DNA of 6,256 bases. Source: Chloroflexota bacterium (GTDB lineage Bacteria; Chloroflexota; Limnocylindria; Limnocylindrales; CSP1-4). The position numbers were made by a program, and so were the translations under genes. Below, piece by piece: positions 126-6,256 of the stretch. The notes beneath the pieces were generated by a model. The model did not search any database and was not told the DNA's origin. It saw only the letters and a list, made by a program, of their open reading frames with translations. Each line of letters starts with the position of its first letter. The stretch's first letter is position 1. Location of the stretch: contig JAJYDP010000308.1 of assembly GCA_021777365.1 (NCBI GenBank), forward strand, positions 1 through 6,256, written 5' to 3'.

Positions 126-569
126 ATGAGCGCGGTCGCCGTCGCCGACGTGACCGGGAAGCACACCGGGTCCGTTCCGCGGATCCTCGTCTTCTCGACC
201 AACAACATCTCGGACCCGGGCATCGACCTGGCCGGCAGCAACCACCTGCATTACTCGCCCGGGGTCGAGGTCATCAGCATGCCGTGCACGAGCGGGATCA
301 AGCCGTCGTGGATCGCGCACGCGATCGAGCAGGGGTTCGACGGTGTCTTCATCGCCTCGGACGGCGACGAGTGCGCCTACCTGCCCGACTGCGCGCACCG
401 CGCGTCGCGGATCGTGGGCGAGGCGCAGGAGCTGCTGAAGGCGGGCGGTCACGATCCCCAGCGCGTCCGCATGGCGGCGATCTGCTCGGTCTGCGCCGAG
501 CCGTTCACGAACCACGTGAAGCAGTTCTCGAGCCTCCTGGCCGGGCTTCGGGAGCAGGGGGCGAAGTGA
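126..569 (+). CDS. MvhD/FlpD-type hydrogenase iron-sulfur subunit (variant cysteine pattern)
   Basis: 147-residue cytoplasmic protein of the MvhD family (FlpD domain). In Mvh-Hdr complexes MvhD carries a [2Fe-2S] cluster that passes electrons from hydrogenase to HdrA. Family landmarks are visible in order: a hydrophobic first strand (RILVFSTNN, about 19-27), DLAGSNHLHYSPGVEVI (34-50), MPCTSGIKPS (52-61), GFDGVFIASDGDECAYLPDC (70-89) and a C-terminal helical part. The usual first CxxC is replaced by STNN and the usual GCH before GDC is ASD. Cysteines remain at 54 and 83, and C89, C120 and C123 lie at positions where the family normally has none. It probably still holds a cluster, with different ligands. 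About 18 residues precede the first strand, slightly longer than typical. The ATG is set by AGGAG nine bases upstream. Family assignment is firm; partner and cluster type are inferred from its position directly before two HdrA-like genes. Confidence 0.88.
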   Translation: MSAVAVADVTGKHTGSVPRILVFSTNNISDPGIDLAGSNHLHYSPGVEVISMPCTSGIKPSWIAHAIEQGFDGVFIASDGDECAYLPDCAHRASRIVGEAQELLKAGGHDPQRVRMAAICSVCAEPFTNHVKQFSSLLAGLREQGAK

Positions 570-571
570 GC

Positions 572-3289
572 ATGGATTACGACGTCCTCGTCGTCGGCAG
601 CGGCATCGGGGGGATGGAGTCCGCCCTGAAGCTCGGCGACATGGGCTACAAGGTGCTCGTCGTCGAGAAGGAGGCGAGCGTCGGCGGCCGGATGATCCTG
701 CTGTCGAAGGTCTTCCCGACCCTGGACTGCGCGAGCTGCATCTCGACGCCGAAGATGGCGCAGACGATCCACCACCCCAACCTCACCGTGCTGACGTACA
801 GCGAGGTCGAGGGGATCGCGCGGAACGGCGGCGGGCAGTTCCACGCGAAGGTGAAGCGCAAGGCGCGCTACGTCGACGAGGTGGCGTGCACCGGCTGCCA
901 GAAGTGCGAGACCGCCTGCACCGTCGCCGTGCCCGACCAGTTCAACGCCGACCTGGTCGCCCGTCGCGCCGCGTACATCGCGTTCCCGCAGGCCGTGCCG
1001 AAGAAGGCGGTCATCGACCGCCAGGGCTCCTCGCCGTGCACGTTCGCGTGCCCCGCCGGGATCGAGGCGCACGGGTACGTGTCGCTGATCCGGAGCGGCG
1101 AGTACGAGAAGGCGCACCGCCTGGTGCTGGACGCCACGCCGCTCGTGGGCACCCTGGGGCGGGCGTGCTACGCGCCGTGCGAGTCCGAGTGCACCCGCGG
1201 CTCGCTCGAGGGCACGCTCCCGATCCGCCGGCTCAAGCGCTTCATCTCCGACCGCCACGTCGAGAGCGGCGAGGACCTCGGGATCGAGGTCGCGGCCGCC
1301 AACGGCCACCGCATCGCGGTGGTGGGCTCCGGGCCGGCCGGTCTGACCGCCGCCTGGCAGCTCGCCCGCAAGGGCTACGCGGTGAAGATCTACGAGGCCG
1401 CGTCCGAGCCGGGCGGCTTCCTGCGCCTGGCCATCCCGTCGTACCGCCTCCCCGTCGAGGTTGTCGAGCGCGACATCCAGAACGTGCGCGACCTGGGCGT
1501 CGAGATCGCCACGAGCACGCCGGTCCGCGATCTCGAGGCGCTCAAGGCCGAGGGGTACGACGCGGTGCTGCTGGCGACCGGCACGCCGCGCTCGTCCGGC
1601 CTGGGCGTGCCCGGCGAGGATCGCCTCGGCGTGATGGGCGGCACCGACTTCCTGCGCAAGGTGAAGCTCGACCAGCCCGTGGACATGGCCGGGAAGCAGG
1701 TCGTGGTGGTGGGCGGCGGCAACGTCGCCATGGACGCCGCGCGCGTCGCTCGCCGGCTGGGTGCCGCGAGCGTGACCGTCGCGTACCGCCGCGGTCGTGC
1801 CGAGATGCCGGCGCACCACGTCGAGGCCGACGACGCCGAGAAGGAAGGCGTCGCGTTCACCTTCCAGGTCGCCCCGGCCGAGGTCGTCGGAGACGCCTCC
1901 GGCGCCGTCAGCGGGCTGCGCTGCGTGCGCATGGCGCTCGGCGAGCCGGACAGCTCCGGGCGCCGGCGGCCGGAGCCGATCAAGGGCAGCGAGTTCGTCA
2001 TCCCGTGCCAGGTCATCATCGCGGCGATCGGCATGACGCCCGACACGGCCGCGTTCGCCGGCACGGTGGGCGTGGGCCGCAACGGCGCGCTCCAGGCCGA
2101 CCCGAAGACGCTCCAGACGAGCGTCCCCTGGGTGTTCGCCGCCGGTGACGTCGTGAACGGCGCCACAGACATCACGCGGGCCGTCGGCGAGGGGCGCCGG
2201 GCGGCGCACATGATCGACCGCTGGCTGACGGGCGGGATGCTGGACGGGTTCGACCTGCGGCTCCCGGTCGTCGACAAGCAGCAGGTCCTGGCGCGCCAGA
2301 AGACGTACACGATCCGGCCCGCGGCCAAGGACGGCGTGACGCTCGAAGCCGCCCCGAGGGACTTCCGCGAGGTCGAGGCCGGGCTCACGGAAGCGGAGGC
2401 CCACGAGGCGTCGGGACGGTGCATGGACTGCGCCGTCTGCTCGGGCTGTCACGAATGCGTCGCCGCGTGCCCGGTCGACGGCTGCATCGATCTGCAGGCC
2501 CGCGACCAGGAGCTGGAGGTGGAGGTCGGCGCGGTGGTCGTGTCGACCGGCTACAAGCTCTTCAACGCGGACCTGAAGCCGCAGTACGGCTTCGGCCAGT
2601 ACCGCAACGTGATCACCGGGATGCAGATGGACCGGCTGCTCGCCCCGACGCGGCCGTTCAACACGATCCTCCGGCCCAGCGACGGCAAGGTGCCCGAGCG
2701 CATCGCGTACGTCATGTGCACCGGATCGCGCGACGAGACGGTGGGCAACCCGCTCTGCTCGAAGTTCTGCTGCATGTACTCGGTCAAGCAGAACCAGCTG
2801 ATCATGGGCGCGCTGCCGCTCGCCGAGGTGACCGTCCACTACATGGACATCCGCGCCGCCGGCAAGCGCTACGACGAGTTCTACGAGCAGTCGAAATCGA
2901 TGGGCGCGACCTACGTCAAGGGACGGGTCGCCAAGATCACCGAGAAGGAGAACGGCGACCTCGTCCTGCGCTACGAGGACATCGAGAACGGCGGCACCCT
3001 CGTCGATGCCGAGTACGACCTCGTCGTGCTGGCGGTCGGCGTCCAGCCGAACCGCGAGGCGGCCATGCTCTTCCCCGAGGACAAGCTGGCCGAGGACGAG
3101 TACTTCTACGTCGCCGAGCCCGACGAGGACCTGAACCCGGGCGTCACGAGCATCCCGGGCGTCTTCGTGGCCGGCGCCGCGGCCGGCGCAAAGGACATCG
3201 TGGACTCGATCCTCCACGCGGGCGCTGCCGCCGCCCAGGTCGCGGCCCACCTGGAACGGACGCAGGCGAAGACGAAGGTGCCGGCATGA
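572..3289 (+). CDS. HdrA-like flavoprotein with an inserted GltD/NfnB-like NAD(P)H oxidoreductase module
   Basis: 905 residues. Residues 1-150 are the start of an HdrA FAD domain: GSGIGG at 9-14, VVEKE at 30-34, GGRM at 38-41, a FPTLDCASC motif with C53 and C56, and the first ferredoxin motif C106-C109-C112-C116. Residues about 152-616 form a complete GltD-type module: cysteines 156, 160, 199, 203 and 207 for [4Fe-4S] binding, a second FAD motif GSGPAG (252-257), an NAD(P)H motif GGGNVA (381-386) followed by YRRGR (405-409), which suggests NADPH, and the AAGD flavin motif (523-526). HdrA then resumes with C617, C620, C623, C626, C629 and C633, and with MCTGSR...CSKFCC (C716, C729, C733, C734). 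It lacks the HdrA N-terminal domain and the C-terminal ferredoxin; the next gene has both. Predicted cytoplasmic NAD(P)H-dependent electron-transfer subunit, possibly bifurcating. The ATG at 572 has AGGGGG ten bases upstream; a GTG at 566 overlapping the previous stop is the alternative. Confidence 0.9.
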   Translation: MDYDVLVVGSGIGGMESALKLGDMGYKVLVVEKEASVGGRMILLSKVFPTLDCASCISTPKMAQTIHHPNLTVLTYSEVEGIARNGGGQFHAKVKRKARYVDEVACTGCQKCETACTVAVPDQFNADLVARRAAYIAFPQAVPKKAVIDRQGSSPCTFACPAGIEAHGYVSLIRSGEYEKAHRLVLDATPLVGTLGRACYAPCESECTRGSLEGTLPIRRLKRFISDRHVESGEDLGIEVAAANGHRIAVVGSGPAGLTAAWQLARKGYAVKIYEAASEPGGFLRLAIPSYRLPVEVVERDIQNVRDLGVEIATSTPVRDLEALKAEGYDAVLLATGTPRSSGLGVPGEDRLGVMGGTDFLRKVKLDQPVDMAGKQVVVVGGGNVAMDAARVARRLGAASVTVAYRRGRAEMPAHHVEADDAEKEGVAFTFQVAPAEVVGDASGAVSGLRCVRMALGEPDSSGRRRPEPIKGSEFVIPCQVIIAAIGMTPDTAAFAGTVGVGRNGALQADPKTLQTSVPWVFAAGDVVNGATDITRAVGEGRRAAHMIDRWLTGGMLDGFDLRLPVVDKQQVLARQKTYTIRPAAKDGVTLEAAPRDFREVEAGLTEAEAHEASGRCMDCAVCSGCHECVAACPVDGCIDLQARDQELEVEVGAVVVSTGYKLFNADLKPQYGFGQYRNVITGMQMDRLLAPTRPFNTILRPSDGKVPERIAYVMCTGSRDETVGNPLCSKFCCMYSVKQNQLIMGALPLAEVTVHYMDIRAAGKRYDEFYEQSKSMGATYVKGRVAKITEKENGDLVLRYEDIENGGTLVDAEYDLVVLAVGVQPNREAAMLFPEDKLAEDEYFYVAEPDEDLNPGVTSIPGVFVAGAAAGAKDIVDSILHAGAAAAQVAAHLERTQAKTKVPA

Positions 3290-5082
3290 GCGAGGAGCGC
3301 ACGGTGACGGCCACGACCGGGGACGCGTCGGCGAACGAGGCGCCCGTTCCGCAGGAGGGCAGGGAGCGCCGGATCGGCGTCTACGTCTGCCACTGCGGCG
3401 GCAACATCTCCGACTACGTCGACGTCGCGCGGGTCGTCGAGGCCGTCAAGGACGAGCCGGGGGTCGTGGTCGCCCGCGACACGATCTTCGCCTGTGCCGA
3501 CGCGAGCCAGCAGGACATGGAGGAGGACATCCACACGTACGGCCTGGACGGCCTCGTGGTGGCCTCCTGCTCCCCCAAGCTCCACACCACGACGTTCCGC
3601 GGCGTGGCCAGGCGGGCCGGCATCAACCCGTACCAGTACACCCAGGTGAACATCCGCGAGCAGGACTCCTGGGCGCACACCGACGACCCGGCAGGAGCCA
3701 CCCATCTCGCGATCAGCCTCGTCAAGGGCGGCATCGCCCGGACGCGCCTCACCGAGCCGCTCGAGCCGCTCGTCGTCGAGACCACCCAGAAGGCGCTCGT
3801 CGTCGGCGGCGGGATCGCCGGCCTGCGCGCGGCGATCGGGCTCGCCGACGTCGGGCTCGAGGTCTTCCTGGTCGAGAAGGAGCAGCAGCTCGGCGGGTGG
3901 GTCAGCCGCCTCGGCACGATGTACCCGCACGACCGCAAGGGGAGCGAGCTCATCGACGGCCTCGTGGCGGAGGTCCGCCGGCGCGATTCGATCACCGTCT
4001 TCACGAACGCCGAGCTGATGGCGAAGTCCGGCAGCTTCGGCAACTACGTGGCGGCGATCCGCATCAACGCCGATCTGCCCGAGCTCGTCCACGTCGAGGT
4101 CGGCTCGATCGTGATCGCGACCGGCTTCGACACCTACGAGCCCGCGGCCGGCGAGTTCGGCTACGGGATCGAGGGCGTCGTCACGCTGCCCGAGTTCAAG
4201 GAGCTCGTGGACGCCTCGCACGGGCCGCTGACGTACCACGGCCGCCCGGTCCGGACGATCGCCTACATCTACTGCGTGGGGAACCGGCAGCCGGGCGGGA
4301 ACGAGTACTGCTCGAAGTACTGCTGCGCGGCCACGGTCCACGCGTCGGTCGAGGTGGCGAAGCTCGACGGGAAGGTCCACCAGTACCACCTGTACCGCGA
4401 CATCCGCACGTACGGGAAGTACGAGCTCATGTACACGGAGTCCCGCAAGCGCGGATCGGTGTACATGAAGTTCCCGGAGGACACGCCGCCCGCCGTGGCG
4501 CAGGATGCGTCCGGGCGCCTCGTGGTCACCACGCACGACACGCTGACGGGCGGCGAGGAAGTCACGATCCCGGCCGACCTCGTCGTGCTCGTGACCGGCA
4601 TGGTGCCCCGCAAGAACGAGGAGCTGATGGGGCTCCTGAAGCTCCCGGTCGGCACCGACGGCTTCTTCAACGAGATCCATCCCAAGCTGCGGCCGGTGGA
4701 GACCGTCGTCGACGGGGTGCTGATCGCGGGCGCCTGCCAGGGCCCCAAGAACTCCACGGAGAGCGTCGCGTCCGGCCTCGCGGCCGTGACGCAGAGCGCG
4801 GCGATCCTCAAAGTAGGGAGTGCCGAGCTCGACCCGCTCGTGGCGACCGTCAACGCGGACGCCTGCACGTGGTGCGAGAAGTGCCTTCCGGCGTGCCCGT
4901 ACGCGGCCATCGAGAAGACCGAGGTGCGGGGACGCACGGTGGCGACGATCAGCCCCAGCACCTGCAAGGGCTGCGGCGGGTGCGTCCCGGTCTGCCCCGA
5001 GGACGCCATCGACCTTCGCGGGTACACGGACGCACAGATCCGGGCCGTGATCGACAGCATGCTGGAGGAGCCGGTCGCATGA
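3286..5082 (+). CDS. hdrA: HdrA-like FAD/iron-sulfur protein (CoB-CoM heterodisulfide reductase subunit A family)
   Basis: 598 residues. After a low-complexity leader of about 28 residues comes the HdrA N-terminal domain: VCHCGGNIS (34-42), FACADASQQ (68-76), VVASCSPKLH (91-100) and NIREQDSW (122-129). The FAD domain has GGGIAG at 174-179, VEKE at 196-199, GGW at 203-205, YCVGNR (329-334), YCSKYCC (341-347) and AGACQGPKN (481-489). The C-terminus is a ferredoxin with two CxxCxxCxxxCP motifs: C527, C530, C533, C537 and C560, C563, C566, C570. The ferredoxin normally inserted in the HdrA FAD domain and the DCxxC motif before it are absent (TMYPHDRKGS at 211-220 instead). HdrA transfers electrons between MvhD-type, HdrC-type and ferredoxin partners through a flavin. 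Here it likely pairs with the preceding GltD-containing subunit. The start overlaps the previous stop (ATGA), with GAAGG seven bases upstream. The symbol is a family label only; CoM-CoB heterodisulfide is not an expected substrate in this bacterial context. Confidence 0.9.
   Translation: MSEERTVTATTGDASANEAPVPQEGRERRIGVYVCHCGGNISDYVDVARVVEAVKDEPGVVVARDTIFACADASQQDMEEDIHTYGLDGLVVASCSPKLHTTTFRGVARRAGINPYQYTQVNIREQDSWAHTDDPAGATHLAISLVKGGIARTRLTEPLEPLVVETTQKALVVGGGIAGLRAAIGLADVGLEVFLVEKEQQLGGWVSRLGTMYPHDRKGSELIDGLVAEVRRRDSITVFTNAELMAKSGSFGNYVAAIRINADLPELVHVEVGSIVIATGFDTYEPAAGEFGYGIEGVVTLPEFKELVDASHGPLTYHGRPVRTIAYIYCVGNRQPGGNEYCSKYCCAATVHASVEVAKLDGKVHQYHLYRDIRTYGKYELMYTESRKRGSVYMKFPEDTPPAVAQDASGRLVVTTHDTLTGGEEVTIPADLVVLVTGMVPRKNEELMGLLKLPVGTDGFFNEIHPKLRPVETVVDGVLIAGACQGPKNSTESVASGLAAVTQSAAILKVGSAELDPLVATVNADACTWCEKCLPACPYAAIEKTEVRGRTVATISPSTCKGCGGCVPVCPEDAIDLRGYTDAQIRAVIDSMLEEPVA
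5064..5070 (+). promoter_or_regulatory. Ribosome binding site of the small winged-helix gene
   Basis: GGAGGAG at 5064-5070, inside the end of the HdrA-like gene, lies 8 bases before the overlapping ATG at 5079 and supports that start. A second good site, GGGAGG at 5119-5124, precedes an in-frame ATG at 5133 (residue 19). Initiation there would drop the IRE-rich leader, so the start is not completely settled. Confidence 0.7.
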
Positions 5083-5333
5083 GCACGACCAGGATCCGGG
5101 AGATCCGGGAGATCATCCGGGAGGAACCGGTGATGCAGCCGCGCATCCTGCAGGCGCTCGAGGGCGGCCCGCGGACGGTGCCCGAGATCGCCGAGACGAT
5201 CGGGTGCCCGACCGACGAGGTGCTCTTCTGGGTGATGGGCATGCGCCGCTACGGCAAGATCCGGGAGGTCCCGGGGGCCAACGCCGACGGGTACTTCCGC
5301 TACTCGCGGCCCGACTGGACGGTGTCGGCATGA
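5079..5333 (+). CDS. Small winged helix-turn-helix-like protein in the hdr operon
   Basis: 84 residues. After a charged leader with repeated IRE units (6-15), the core reads as a winged-helix fold: a first helix MQPRILQALEG (19-29), TVPEIAETIG (33-42) as the second helix, TDEVLFWVMGMRRYG (45-59) as the candidate recognition helix, and a short wing KIREVPG...GYFRYSRP (60-78). It has one cysteine (C43) and no metal motif. Its place between the HdrA-like and QmoC-like genes, overlapping both by ATGA, ties its synthesis to the complex. It could be an operon regulator or, since many small winged-helix domains mediate protein contacts, an assembly or accessory subunit. The sequence does not decide between these. 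The start chosen is ATG 5079, with GGAGGAG upstream; ATG 5133 is the alternative and would leave 66 residues. Confidence 0.8.
   Translation: MSTTRIREIREIIREEPVMQPRILQALEGGPRTVPEIAETIGCPTDEVLFWVMGMRRYGKIREVPGANADGYFRYSRPDWTVSA
5093..5122 (+). repeat. In-frame 9-base tandem repeat at the start of the winged-helix gene
   Basis: GATCCGGGA occurs at 5093-5101 and 5102-5110, followed by GATC and ATCCGGGA (5115-5122), and encodes IRE-IRE-I-IRE. The same unit recurs once at 5258-5266 in the same gene (IRE at residues 61-63). It may be repeat expansion in a flexible leader, and the GGGAG cores also resemble Shine-Dalgarno sequences. Confidence 0.7.
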
Positions 5334-6256
5334 CCGCGCTCGTCGACACCGGCCTCCTCGCCGACGTGCAGCAGTTCGGGGCGGCCGACGTCTCGGCCTG
5401 CTTCAGCTGCGGCAACTGCACCGCGATCTGCCCGCTCTCGGACAACGACGGCACGTTCCCGCGCCGCCTCATCCGCTACGCGCAGGTGGGGATGAAGGAC
5501 GCGCTCCTGGGCAGCAAGGAGCTGTGGACCTGCTACCACTGCGGCGAGTGCTCGGACACCTGCCCGACGCAGGCGGATCCGGGCGGATTCATGGCCGCCG
5601 CCCGGCGCTACGCGATCGCGAACTACGACCACACGCGCCTCGCCCGGACGATGTACACGAGCCCGCTGCTGGGTTCCGTCATCGCGATCCTGCTGGCGGC
5701 GTTCTTCGCGGTCTTCATGTACGCGTCGCACGGCACGCAGAGCACGACGTCGCTGCAGCTCTTCGGGTTCATCCCCGAGGCGCTCATCCACAACACGGGC
5801 GTCGTGGTGATGATCCTCGTCTTCCTCGCCGGCCTGGCCGGCGTCGTCACCATGGCGAGAGGGATCGCCAGGCGCGAGCAGATCTCGCTCCCCGACGTGA
5901 TCGGGAGCCGGGCGGCCCTGGCGAGATCCGGGCGCGCGCTGTGGAGCGCGCTCGGGATCGAGTCGATCGGCCAGCGACGGTTCCGCACCGACTGCGAGAC
6001 GGTGCAGGAGGCTCGCCCCTGGTACCGCCGGCGCTGGTTCATCCACGCCTCGACGATGTGGGGGTTCCTCGGACTGCTCGCGGCGACGATCCTCGACTAC
6101 GGGCTCGCGGTCGTCGGCGTCAAGGCCACGGGCACCCCGGTGCCCATCTGGTACCCGGTGCGGCTCCTCGGCACGGTGGCCGGCCTGTTCCTGATCTACG
6201 GCACGACGATGCTGATCGTCGACCGACTGCAGAAGGCGAACCGCGCGGCCTCCGAC
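5330..6256 (+). CDS. qmoC: QmoC-like membrane subunit: HdrC-type ferredoxin fused to a cytochrome b-like domain (3' truncated by window)
   Basis: 309 residues visible, open at the window edge. The N-terminal half is an HdrC-like ferredoxin with two CxxCxxCxxxCP motifs: C24, C27, C30, C34 and C68, C71, C74, C78. The text around them (CPLSDNDGTFPRRLIRYAQV and LWTCYHCGECSDTCP) closely matches QmoC of sulfate reducers. Four hydrophobic segments follow at about 112-132, 152-173, 236-261 and 275-296. The arginine-rich 174-235 loop fits the cytoplasmic side, so the ferredoxin faces the cytoplasm. H154 and H239, at the starts of segments 2 and 3, are candidate heme b ligands. QmoC passes electrons between membrane menaquinone and the soluble HdrA-like subunits; the same role is inferred here. 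QmoC proteins are usually longer, so the remaining membrane part should lie beyond base 6256. The start overlaps the previous stop (ATGA). Only a weak Shine-Dalgarno (GGAC at 5317-5320) is visible, so translation is probably coupled. The symbol marks family resemblance; orthology is unproven. Confidence 0.85.
   Translation, partial: MTALVDTGLLADVQQFGAADVSACFSCGNCTAICPLSDNDGTFPRRLIRYAQVGMKDALLGSKELWTCYHCGECSDTCPTQADPGGFMAAARRYAIANYDHTRLARTMYTSPLLGSVIAILLAAFFAVFMYASHGTQSTTSLQLFGFIPEALIHNTGVVVMILVFLAGLAGVVTMARGIARREQISLPDVIGSRAALARSGRALWSALGIESIGQRRFRTDCETVQEARPWYRRRWFIHASTMWGFLGLLAATILDYGLAVVGVKATGTPVPIWYPVRLLGTVAGLFLIYGTTMLIVDRLQKANRAASD

Follow-up and report, generated by a model that had tools for sequence, protein, structure and literature searches.

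What does a membrane complex of Qmo- and Hdr-type subunits do when it carries its own NAD(P)H module and neither a hydrogenase nor an HdrB gene accompanies it? The question is raised by a stretch of 6,256 nucleotides from a Chloroflexota bacterium (the window), in which no hydrogenase or HdrB gene was found. Five genes lie on its forward strand, and their frames and families agree with the order given in the original prediction: an MvhD/FlpD-like subunit, an HdrA carrying an inserted GltD-type module (named HdrAG here), a second HdrA, a winged-helix protein and a QmoC-like subunit. In gene order the intergenic gaps are 2, −4, −4 and −4 bases; the three 4-base overlaps and the one 2-base gap between genes on the same strand therefore point to a single operon. 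The best match, contig C32 of the metagenome-assembled genome (MAG) G000, shows 26 differences in 6256 bases, so the window comes from a close strain of the C32 source and is not the same record. The operon exceeds the window at both ends, with carrier genes upstream on C32 and QmoC continuing past the window end. We propose that the operon encodes a membrane complex which would exchange electrons between protein-bound sulfane sulfur, NADP(H) and menaquinone, and that the window covers the redox half of this operon. Judged from sequence, the chance that this complex is a sulfane-sulfur-carrier:NADP(H):menaquinone oxidoreductase, its direction left open, is about even.

The sulfur side of this proposal comes from the genes upstream. 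On C32, and on the same strand, these encode DsrE2-like, TusA, DsrE2, TusA, DsrE and TusA proteins, with gaps of 10–78 bases. Relatives were taken as the best 80 of 156 confirmed HdrAG loci (Actinomycetota 42, Chloroflexota 31, Dormiibacterota 4, records labelled Bacillota 2, unplaced 1), and every frame was searched with a profile for each gene. Upstream genes were counted in the 64 loci with at least 1.5 kb of upstream sequence (16 of the 80 were excluded), and downstream genes in the 59 with at least 3.5 kb downstream (21 excluded). TusA was present in 64/64 loci and MvhD upstream in 63/64, and TusA together with a DsrE-family gene was found somewhere in the stretch in 62/64. Downstream, 59/59 loci had the second HdrA, 59/59 had either QmoC or just its HdrC half, and 58/59 had the winged-helix protein. 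The gene set is conserved across these loci, whose hosts are widespread and mostly uncultured bacteria. The carrier cysteines are kept in 68/68 TusA3, 21/21 TusA1, 24/24 DsrE2a and 43/43 DsrE2b sequences, and C83 of DsrE in 39/40.

A wider search for HdrAG homologues gave at least 4622 matches, 120 of them listed, among at least 7999 candidates that include matches to the GltD part only. Within 61 genomes related to that of the window, HdrAG was found at E ≤ 1e-100 in 10. Genes were called with an in-house caller; those missed in loci of lower G+C content (L169, for example) were re-read from the open reading frame listing. The bin of the same MAG also includes another copy of the operon, on a separate short contig (L002, G000:C59, 7002 bases); this copy is 85% identical to the window operon in DNA over 6295 columns, and may be a paralogue or a co-binned strain. 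The complete gene set is present in the named strains Actinotalea lenta SYSU T00b441, Cellulomonas sp. SG140 and Actinotalea sp. M2MS4P-6 (L053, L055, L102), so that deletions and biochemistry may be feasible.

We lean towards a model in which the TusA, DsrE and DsrE2 carriers deliver sulfur to, or take sulfur from, the complex, docking perhaps at MvhD or at N-terminal cysteines of the second HdrA. A third partner, of low potential or a disulfide, had been predicted for the complex; a partner is indeed proposed here, but it would most likely be these carriers, encoded outside the window. Alternatively, TusA and DsrE could serve biosynthetic sulfur transfer or redox sensing, next to an NAD(P)H:menaquinone complex of the HdrL/Stn type that acts with or without ferredoxin. 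HdrL of Desulfobacterium autotrophicum was proposed to accept electrons from NADH (excerpts of PMC2702500), and the second HdrA retains a C-terminal two-cluster ferredoxin, both in favour of this alternative. It is nevertheless improbable given the counts for TusA and for TusA plus a DsrE-family gene, which extend across several phyla, and carriers also adjoin the GltD-less relatives described below.

The NADP(H) side resides in HdrAG (905 aa; positions 572–3289; NCBIfam HdrA2, E=5.7e-135). Compared with the solved HdrA 5odc_A, HdrAG is without the N-terminal domain and the C-terminal ferredoxin; its HdrA core has the flavin adenine dinucleotide (FAD) site, the clusters and the inserted ferredoxin domain, which houses the GltD module (residues ~151–616, positions 1022–2419). 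The module has two [4Fe-4S] sites, FAD and a NAD(P)H site, is of the StnC/NfnABC type, and contains Pfam Fer4_20 at residues 154–232 and Pyr_redox_2 at 247–541; structure comparison gave a StnC-type fold. The second HdrA (598 aa; positions 3286–5082; HdrA2, E=6.7e-140) is built the other way round, with an N-terminal domain, the FAD core and a C-terminal two-cluster ferredoxin, and with the inserted ferredoxin missing. Residue counts cover proteins within set length limits and with coverage of 80% or more (72 HdrAG, 75 HdrA, 60 QmoC and 62 MvhD, each plus the window's own). The HdrA cluster cysteines C386, C399, C403 and C404 are kept in both proteins, in 73/73 HdrAG and 76/76 second HdrA sequences.

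Within the GltD module, K222 (positions 1235–1237) occupies the place of StnC K170 at the FAD-proximal cluster, where NfnB has glutamate, and is lysine in 73/73. This StnC lysine disfavours bifurcation of the NfnB type at the inserted GltD. R292, in the place of NfnB R201, is also kept in 73/73 and does not discriminate, as StnC has R239 there too. In StnC the GltD domain relays NADPH electrons without bifurcating (excerpts of PMC10482914). By analogy, NADP(H) would probably react at the GltD FAD of HdrAG, from which the clusters of the GltD module and the ferredoxin domain would lead electrons on to the HdrA FAD in the same polypeptide. The nucleotide motif at residues 405–407 (positions 1784–1792) is YRR, an NADP-type arginine pair, in 55/73 sequences; it is CLE in 13/73 and otherwise changed in 5/73.

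The residues proposed to distinguish bifurcating from non-bifurcating HdrA proteins are K409 and E356 (excerpts of PMC12054007). In HdrAG the equivalent of K409, which lies at FAD N5, is K739 (positions 2786–2788), lysine in 73/73, and the equivalent of E356 is an acid at residue 687 in 73/73, as D in 59 and E in 14. In the second HdrA the K409 position is taken by H352 (positions 4339–4341); over 76 rows it is H in 62, Q in 10, A in 2 and F in 2, and never lysine. Because the lysine/acid pair occurs in HdrAG and the partner HdrA has no lysine, a single HdrA flavin is a potential site of bifurcation, namely that of the subunit bearing the NAD(P)H module. Electron bifurcation, raised in the original prediction, is therefore compatible with the residues.

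The quinone side is the QmoC-like subunit (positions 5330–6256, cut by the window end), which consists of an HdrC part and a membrane part and continues on C32 for 385 aa in all, up to the contig end. The qmoC model scored 151 bits on the truncated piece and 208.5 bits on C32, and 213.6 and 201.9 bits on full-length relatives, against 400.6 and 325.1 bits for two canonical QmoC proteins and a curated cut-off of 300. Eight cluster cysteines and H154, H239, H351 and H369 are kept in 59–61 of 61 sequences; four conserved histidines are enough for two haems b, which is the probable haem count. Menaquinone would very probably react at this subunit. A hemerythrin-type gene lies near the operon in 15 loci, directly after QmoC at ten places (L025:15913-16404; Pfam-tested in L025 only).

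If the usual partners of Qmo or Mvh-Hdr systems, namely APS (adenosine 5′-phosphosulfate) reductase, sulfite reductase or a hydrogenase, were encoded elsewhere in the genome, the complex would be an ordinary member of one of those systems. The QmoC-like protein with two HdrA-like subunits speaks for this, as does contig C288 of the same MAG (L010, G000:C288:1-7400), which carries an ordinary HdrB-HdrA-MvhD-[NiFe] hydrogenase set with maturation genes, separate from the window. Partners were searched for in 30 operon-bearing genome handles, corresponding to 29 genomes (G004 and G072 coincide), and in 14 control genomes. Above the cut-off, dsrA was found in 0/30 operon genomes, weak matches occurring in 8/30 and also in 8/14 controls, and aprA likewise in 0/30, with weak matches in 23/30 and also in 5/14 controls. 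Homologues of the MAG's own MvhA/MvhG were present in 1/80 loci (L053), and the C288 cluster comes with an HdrA and an MvhD of its own. Together with the separate placement of canonical QmoA and QmoB in the trees below, these results make an ordinary system highly improbable, and they uphold the earlier view that the complex is Qmo/Hdr-like, sits in the membrane, contains an NAD(P)H module of its own and lacks a hydrogenase. The single hydrogenase match in the 80 loci is in Actinotalea lenta (L053:19969-23482), where genes reading as a group 3b-type [NiFe] hydrogenase lie ~4 kb after QmoC.

For the trees, canonical Qmo rows were assigned from their sat-aprBA neighbours; the first tree held 28 of the 73 HdrAG sequences and the second 12 of those plus L193. 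In the first tree the 28 GltD-bearing HdrAs form one clade (99/99) with L169 as its sister (100/99), both within a larger group that takes in the GltD-less relatives described below (100/100), and canonical QmoA and QmoB (L167, L168, L177–L179) fall in a separate clade (100/99). In neither tree do the two window HdrAs group with canonical QmoA/QmoB or with the Mvh-type HdrA of the same MAG, in keeping with the original prediction. The second tree gives an HdrAG clade that includes L193 (97/91), and its partner-HdrA part puts L193 outside the unfused L169/L191 pair. The history of the GltD insertion, as read from these sequences, may comprise a single gain, a loss in L169/L191, or transfer.

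Relatives without the insert were found with the qmoC model, which matched above its cut-off in 2 of 400 Chloroflexota genomes and more weakly (E ≤ 1e-30) in 27 more. Around these matches, with neighbours judged by eye unless stated otherwise, operons reading as canonical sat-aprBA-qmoABC occur in L167, L168 and L177–L179. Six further operons (L171–L176) have the order HdrA-HdrA-winged helix-QmoC, with a first HdrA of 431–460 residues and no GltD; L175 and L176 belong to the window's own family. Gene calls placed MvhD in all of the six but L171 and a TusA3-type TusA in all but L172, and BLAST labels identified DsrE-family genes in L171 and L173–L176. These six were assumed to be type II Qmo, published type II sequences not being in the tree. 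L172 and L173 adjoin a YedE-type transporter gene (Pfam Sulf_transp tested for L172) and TusA-/DsrE-like genes; the YedE/TusA/DsrE set, YTD, has been tied to sulfur disproportionation (excerpts of PMC12998232). In L169 and L191, where carriers and MvhD are present, the GltD-less HdrA is 62% identical to HdrAG across the C-terminal half. In L169 and L192 a separate GltD-like gene follows further downstream of QmoC (the L191 contig ends first). It is preceded by a UbiA-like frame in L169, read by eye, and by ~0.85 kb without a long open frame in L192, and the argument for a split gene is therefore weak.

The output end of the complex seems, from gene content, to be exchangeable between quinone at the membrane and an HdrB-type protein. 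QmoC is long, with a membrane part, in 46/59 loci, and short, with the HdrC part alone, in 13/59. An HdrB-like CCG protein follows QmoC in 13/13 of the short-QmoC loci and in 0/46 of the long ones; that of L086, the single one tested, has one CCG domain. The claim that HdrB is missing thus stands for the window and the membrane form, but not for these 13 loci, in which an HdrB-like protein replaces the membrane half. The 11 short-QmoC loci in the tree form one clade, both for the partner HdrA (100/96) and for HdrAG (99/95). A BLAST search of the 80 loci with the C288 HdrB of the same MAG found nothing at 1e-5, and the HdrB-like proteins of the 13 loci are therefore distant from it. A genome-wide search for the CCG domain was non-discriminating, with matches in 30/30 operon genomes and 12/14 controls.

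CLE replaces YRR in L065, L073–L075, L086, L087, L090, L091, L093 and L096, and also in L072, L076 and L077. These include most loci of the soluble HdrB form, and a nucleotide switch may accompany the switch of output arm. One soluble-form locus, L069 in genome G004, belongs to the window's own genus and has an HdrAG 64% identical to that of the window; the occurrence of both forms within one genus is likely due to transfer. After the HdrB-form operon of L086 (L086:17702-23359) lie a GltD-like gene and then a large putative pyruvate:ferredoxin oxidoreductase gene and a dihydroorotate dehydrogenase-like gene.

In redox potential, persulfide/thiol couples would fall between NADP(H) and menaquinone, the arrangement that a bifurcating flavin needs. 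Tentatively, the FAD beside K739 would be the bifurcation point, with sulfane sulfur at middle potential, menaquinone above it and NADP(H) below. It is more doubtful whether the complex as a whole is an electron-bifurcating sulfane-sulfur:NADP+:menaquinone oxidoreductase, in which carrier persulfide would split its electrons between menaquinone, through QmoC, and, uphill, NADP+, through the GltD arm, one lineage having swapped the quinone arm for an HdrB-type arm. If this were true, sulfur could serve as a source of NADPH for Chloroflexota and Actinomycetota that have neither Dsr nor Apr enzymes.

Net sulfur oxidation yielding NADPH and quinol, rather than persulfide reduction, is a direction to which we give an even chance. 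The reductive direction, in which NADPH and menaquinol would drive the reduction of carrier persulfide to sulfide, serving either detoxification or the respiration of sulfur, is compatible with the proposed oxidoreductase and is possible, if rather unlikely. All of the couples are reversible in principle, and NADPH-dependent polysulfide reduction by GltD-like SudA/NfnA is described in excerpts of PMC5736913. ArsR-type regulator genes near the operon in 22 loci (for example L025:8368-8760; Pfam-tested in L025 only) would suit a stress response; that they sense sulfide is a guess. On the other side, a quinone arm makes poor sense in simple detoxification, and the YedE-type importer beside the related operons L172 and L173 hints that sulfur is a substrate.

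Several points weigh against the proposed exchange between sulfane sulfur, NADP(H) and menaquinone. The membrane form encodes no HdrB-type site for sulfur chemistry. The search for sulfite- and sulfate-level enzymes covered dsrA and aprA, and their absences are soft, as the genomes are incomplete (G000 84%, G004 61%). Because the loci share ancestry and also supplied part of the sequences behind the profiles, the counts are descriptive and are not independent trials; a DsrE-family gene strictly upstream of HdrAG is found in 58/64 loci, fewer than the 62 counted over the whole stretch. In five Actinomycetota loci (L078, L081, L082, L083, L095) the operon persists without GGGN and YRR, the two nucleotide motifs of the GltD module. 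Their NAD(P)H arm may have lost its function, in which case NAD(P)H is not needed everywhere.

Two smaller proteins complete the window. The MvhD/FlpD-like subunit (147 aa; positions 126–569; Pfam FlpD, E=5.1e-28) has conserved cysteines C54, C83, C89, C120 and C123, each in 59–63 of 63 family rows. In an alignment the CNWC motif of the hydrogenase-linked MvhD of the same MAG is absent from the window MvhD, which has no CxxC of that kind. The 84-residue protein (positions 5079–5333) matches HTH_20 below threshold (E=4e-4), and its predicted structure is a confident winged helix (predicted local distance difference test score, pLDDT, 88.9). ArsR, MarR and Zalpha domains ranked top in a fold search, in which Foldseek gave no match at E ≤ 0.001 and DsrD was absent among the matches listed. 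The gene is a near-constant member of the operon, and its position between two subunit genes hints at a part in structure or assembly and not in regulation. Outside the window's gene set, 8 loci (L034, L035, L038, L041, L048, L068, L084 and L029) carry a gene for a TauE/SafE-type exporter, and in 7 of the 8 this gene adjoins a further DsrE2-TusA-DsrE2 set, encoded on the opposite strand downstream of the operon.

How does the operon compare with known systems? Canonical QmoABC (type I) resembles it in having an HdrA pair and an HdrC/di-haem membrane subunit. Membership was rejected on the QmoC score on C32, which is below the cut-off, the position of both HdrAs outside the QmoA/QmoB clades, and the lack of aprA above cut-off in the operon genomes. 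Type II Qmo is found with or without Apr/Dsr, and what Qmo-like complexes do in organisms that lack Apr or Dsr is called open in excerpts of PMC10504309. The operon differs from type II QmoAB(C), as described there, in its GltD module, its separate MvhD, and its winged-helix and carrier genes, the comparison being by description only. For such complexes it offers a testable answer, with sulfur carriers in place of APS reductase as the partners.

HdrABC-MvhAGD membership was rejected on the MvhA/MvhG count, the lack of HdrB in the window, and the restriction of HdrB-like proteins to loci with a short QmoC. In the sHdr sulfur-oxidation system, hdrC1B1A-hyp-hdrC2B2 is accompanied by TusA, DsrE and LbpA (excerpts of PMC6776052, PMC4378227 and PMC12345210), and carriers of the TusA/DsrE families are likewise encoded beside the Hdr core in 62/64 loci here. 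Membership of sHdr was rejected, the membrane form having no HdrB and the 13/59 loci a single HdrB-like match, as against HdrB1 and HdrB2; the GltD arm and QmoC are further differences from the system as described in those excerpts. In the StnABC/NfnABC transhydrogenases (8oh5, 9bov, 9n5u; excerpts of PMC10482914) the corresponding module feeds a HydBC-type flavin module, StnAB, whereas here it would feed the HdrA flavin.

The closest precedent for HdrAG is in print, so that the earlier statement that no characterised system could be recognised holds for the combination of genes in the literature searched, but not for the HdrA/GltD fusion itself. HdrL of D. autotrophicum, in which HdrA is fused with glutamate synthase and which is accompanied by MvhD, was published in 2009 (excerpts of PMC2702500), and nine archaeal sequences of GltD-inserted type III HdrA, all with K409 and E356, in 2025 (excerpts of PMC12054007). 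As in those proteins, a GltD-type module is inserted in the HdrA ferredoxin domain and MvhD is nearby (63/64 loci). K409 is likewise invariant here, but the place of E356 is D in 59/73 and E in 14/73, and the excerpts of those two sources describe neither a second HdrA-winged helix-QmoC set nor carriers. A description of the whole combination was not found in searches of the Creative Commons-licensed literature of PubMed Central, outside which most subscription papers lie. The Hdr core appears as one that swaps arms, with GltD present or absent and either a di-haem membrane part or an HdrB-like protein. The modules themselves (HdrL/type III HdrA, Qmo and TusA/DsrE) are known; what appears new against the literature searched is their union in one operon conserved across phyla, with exchange of the membrane and HdrB arms.

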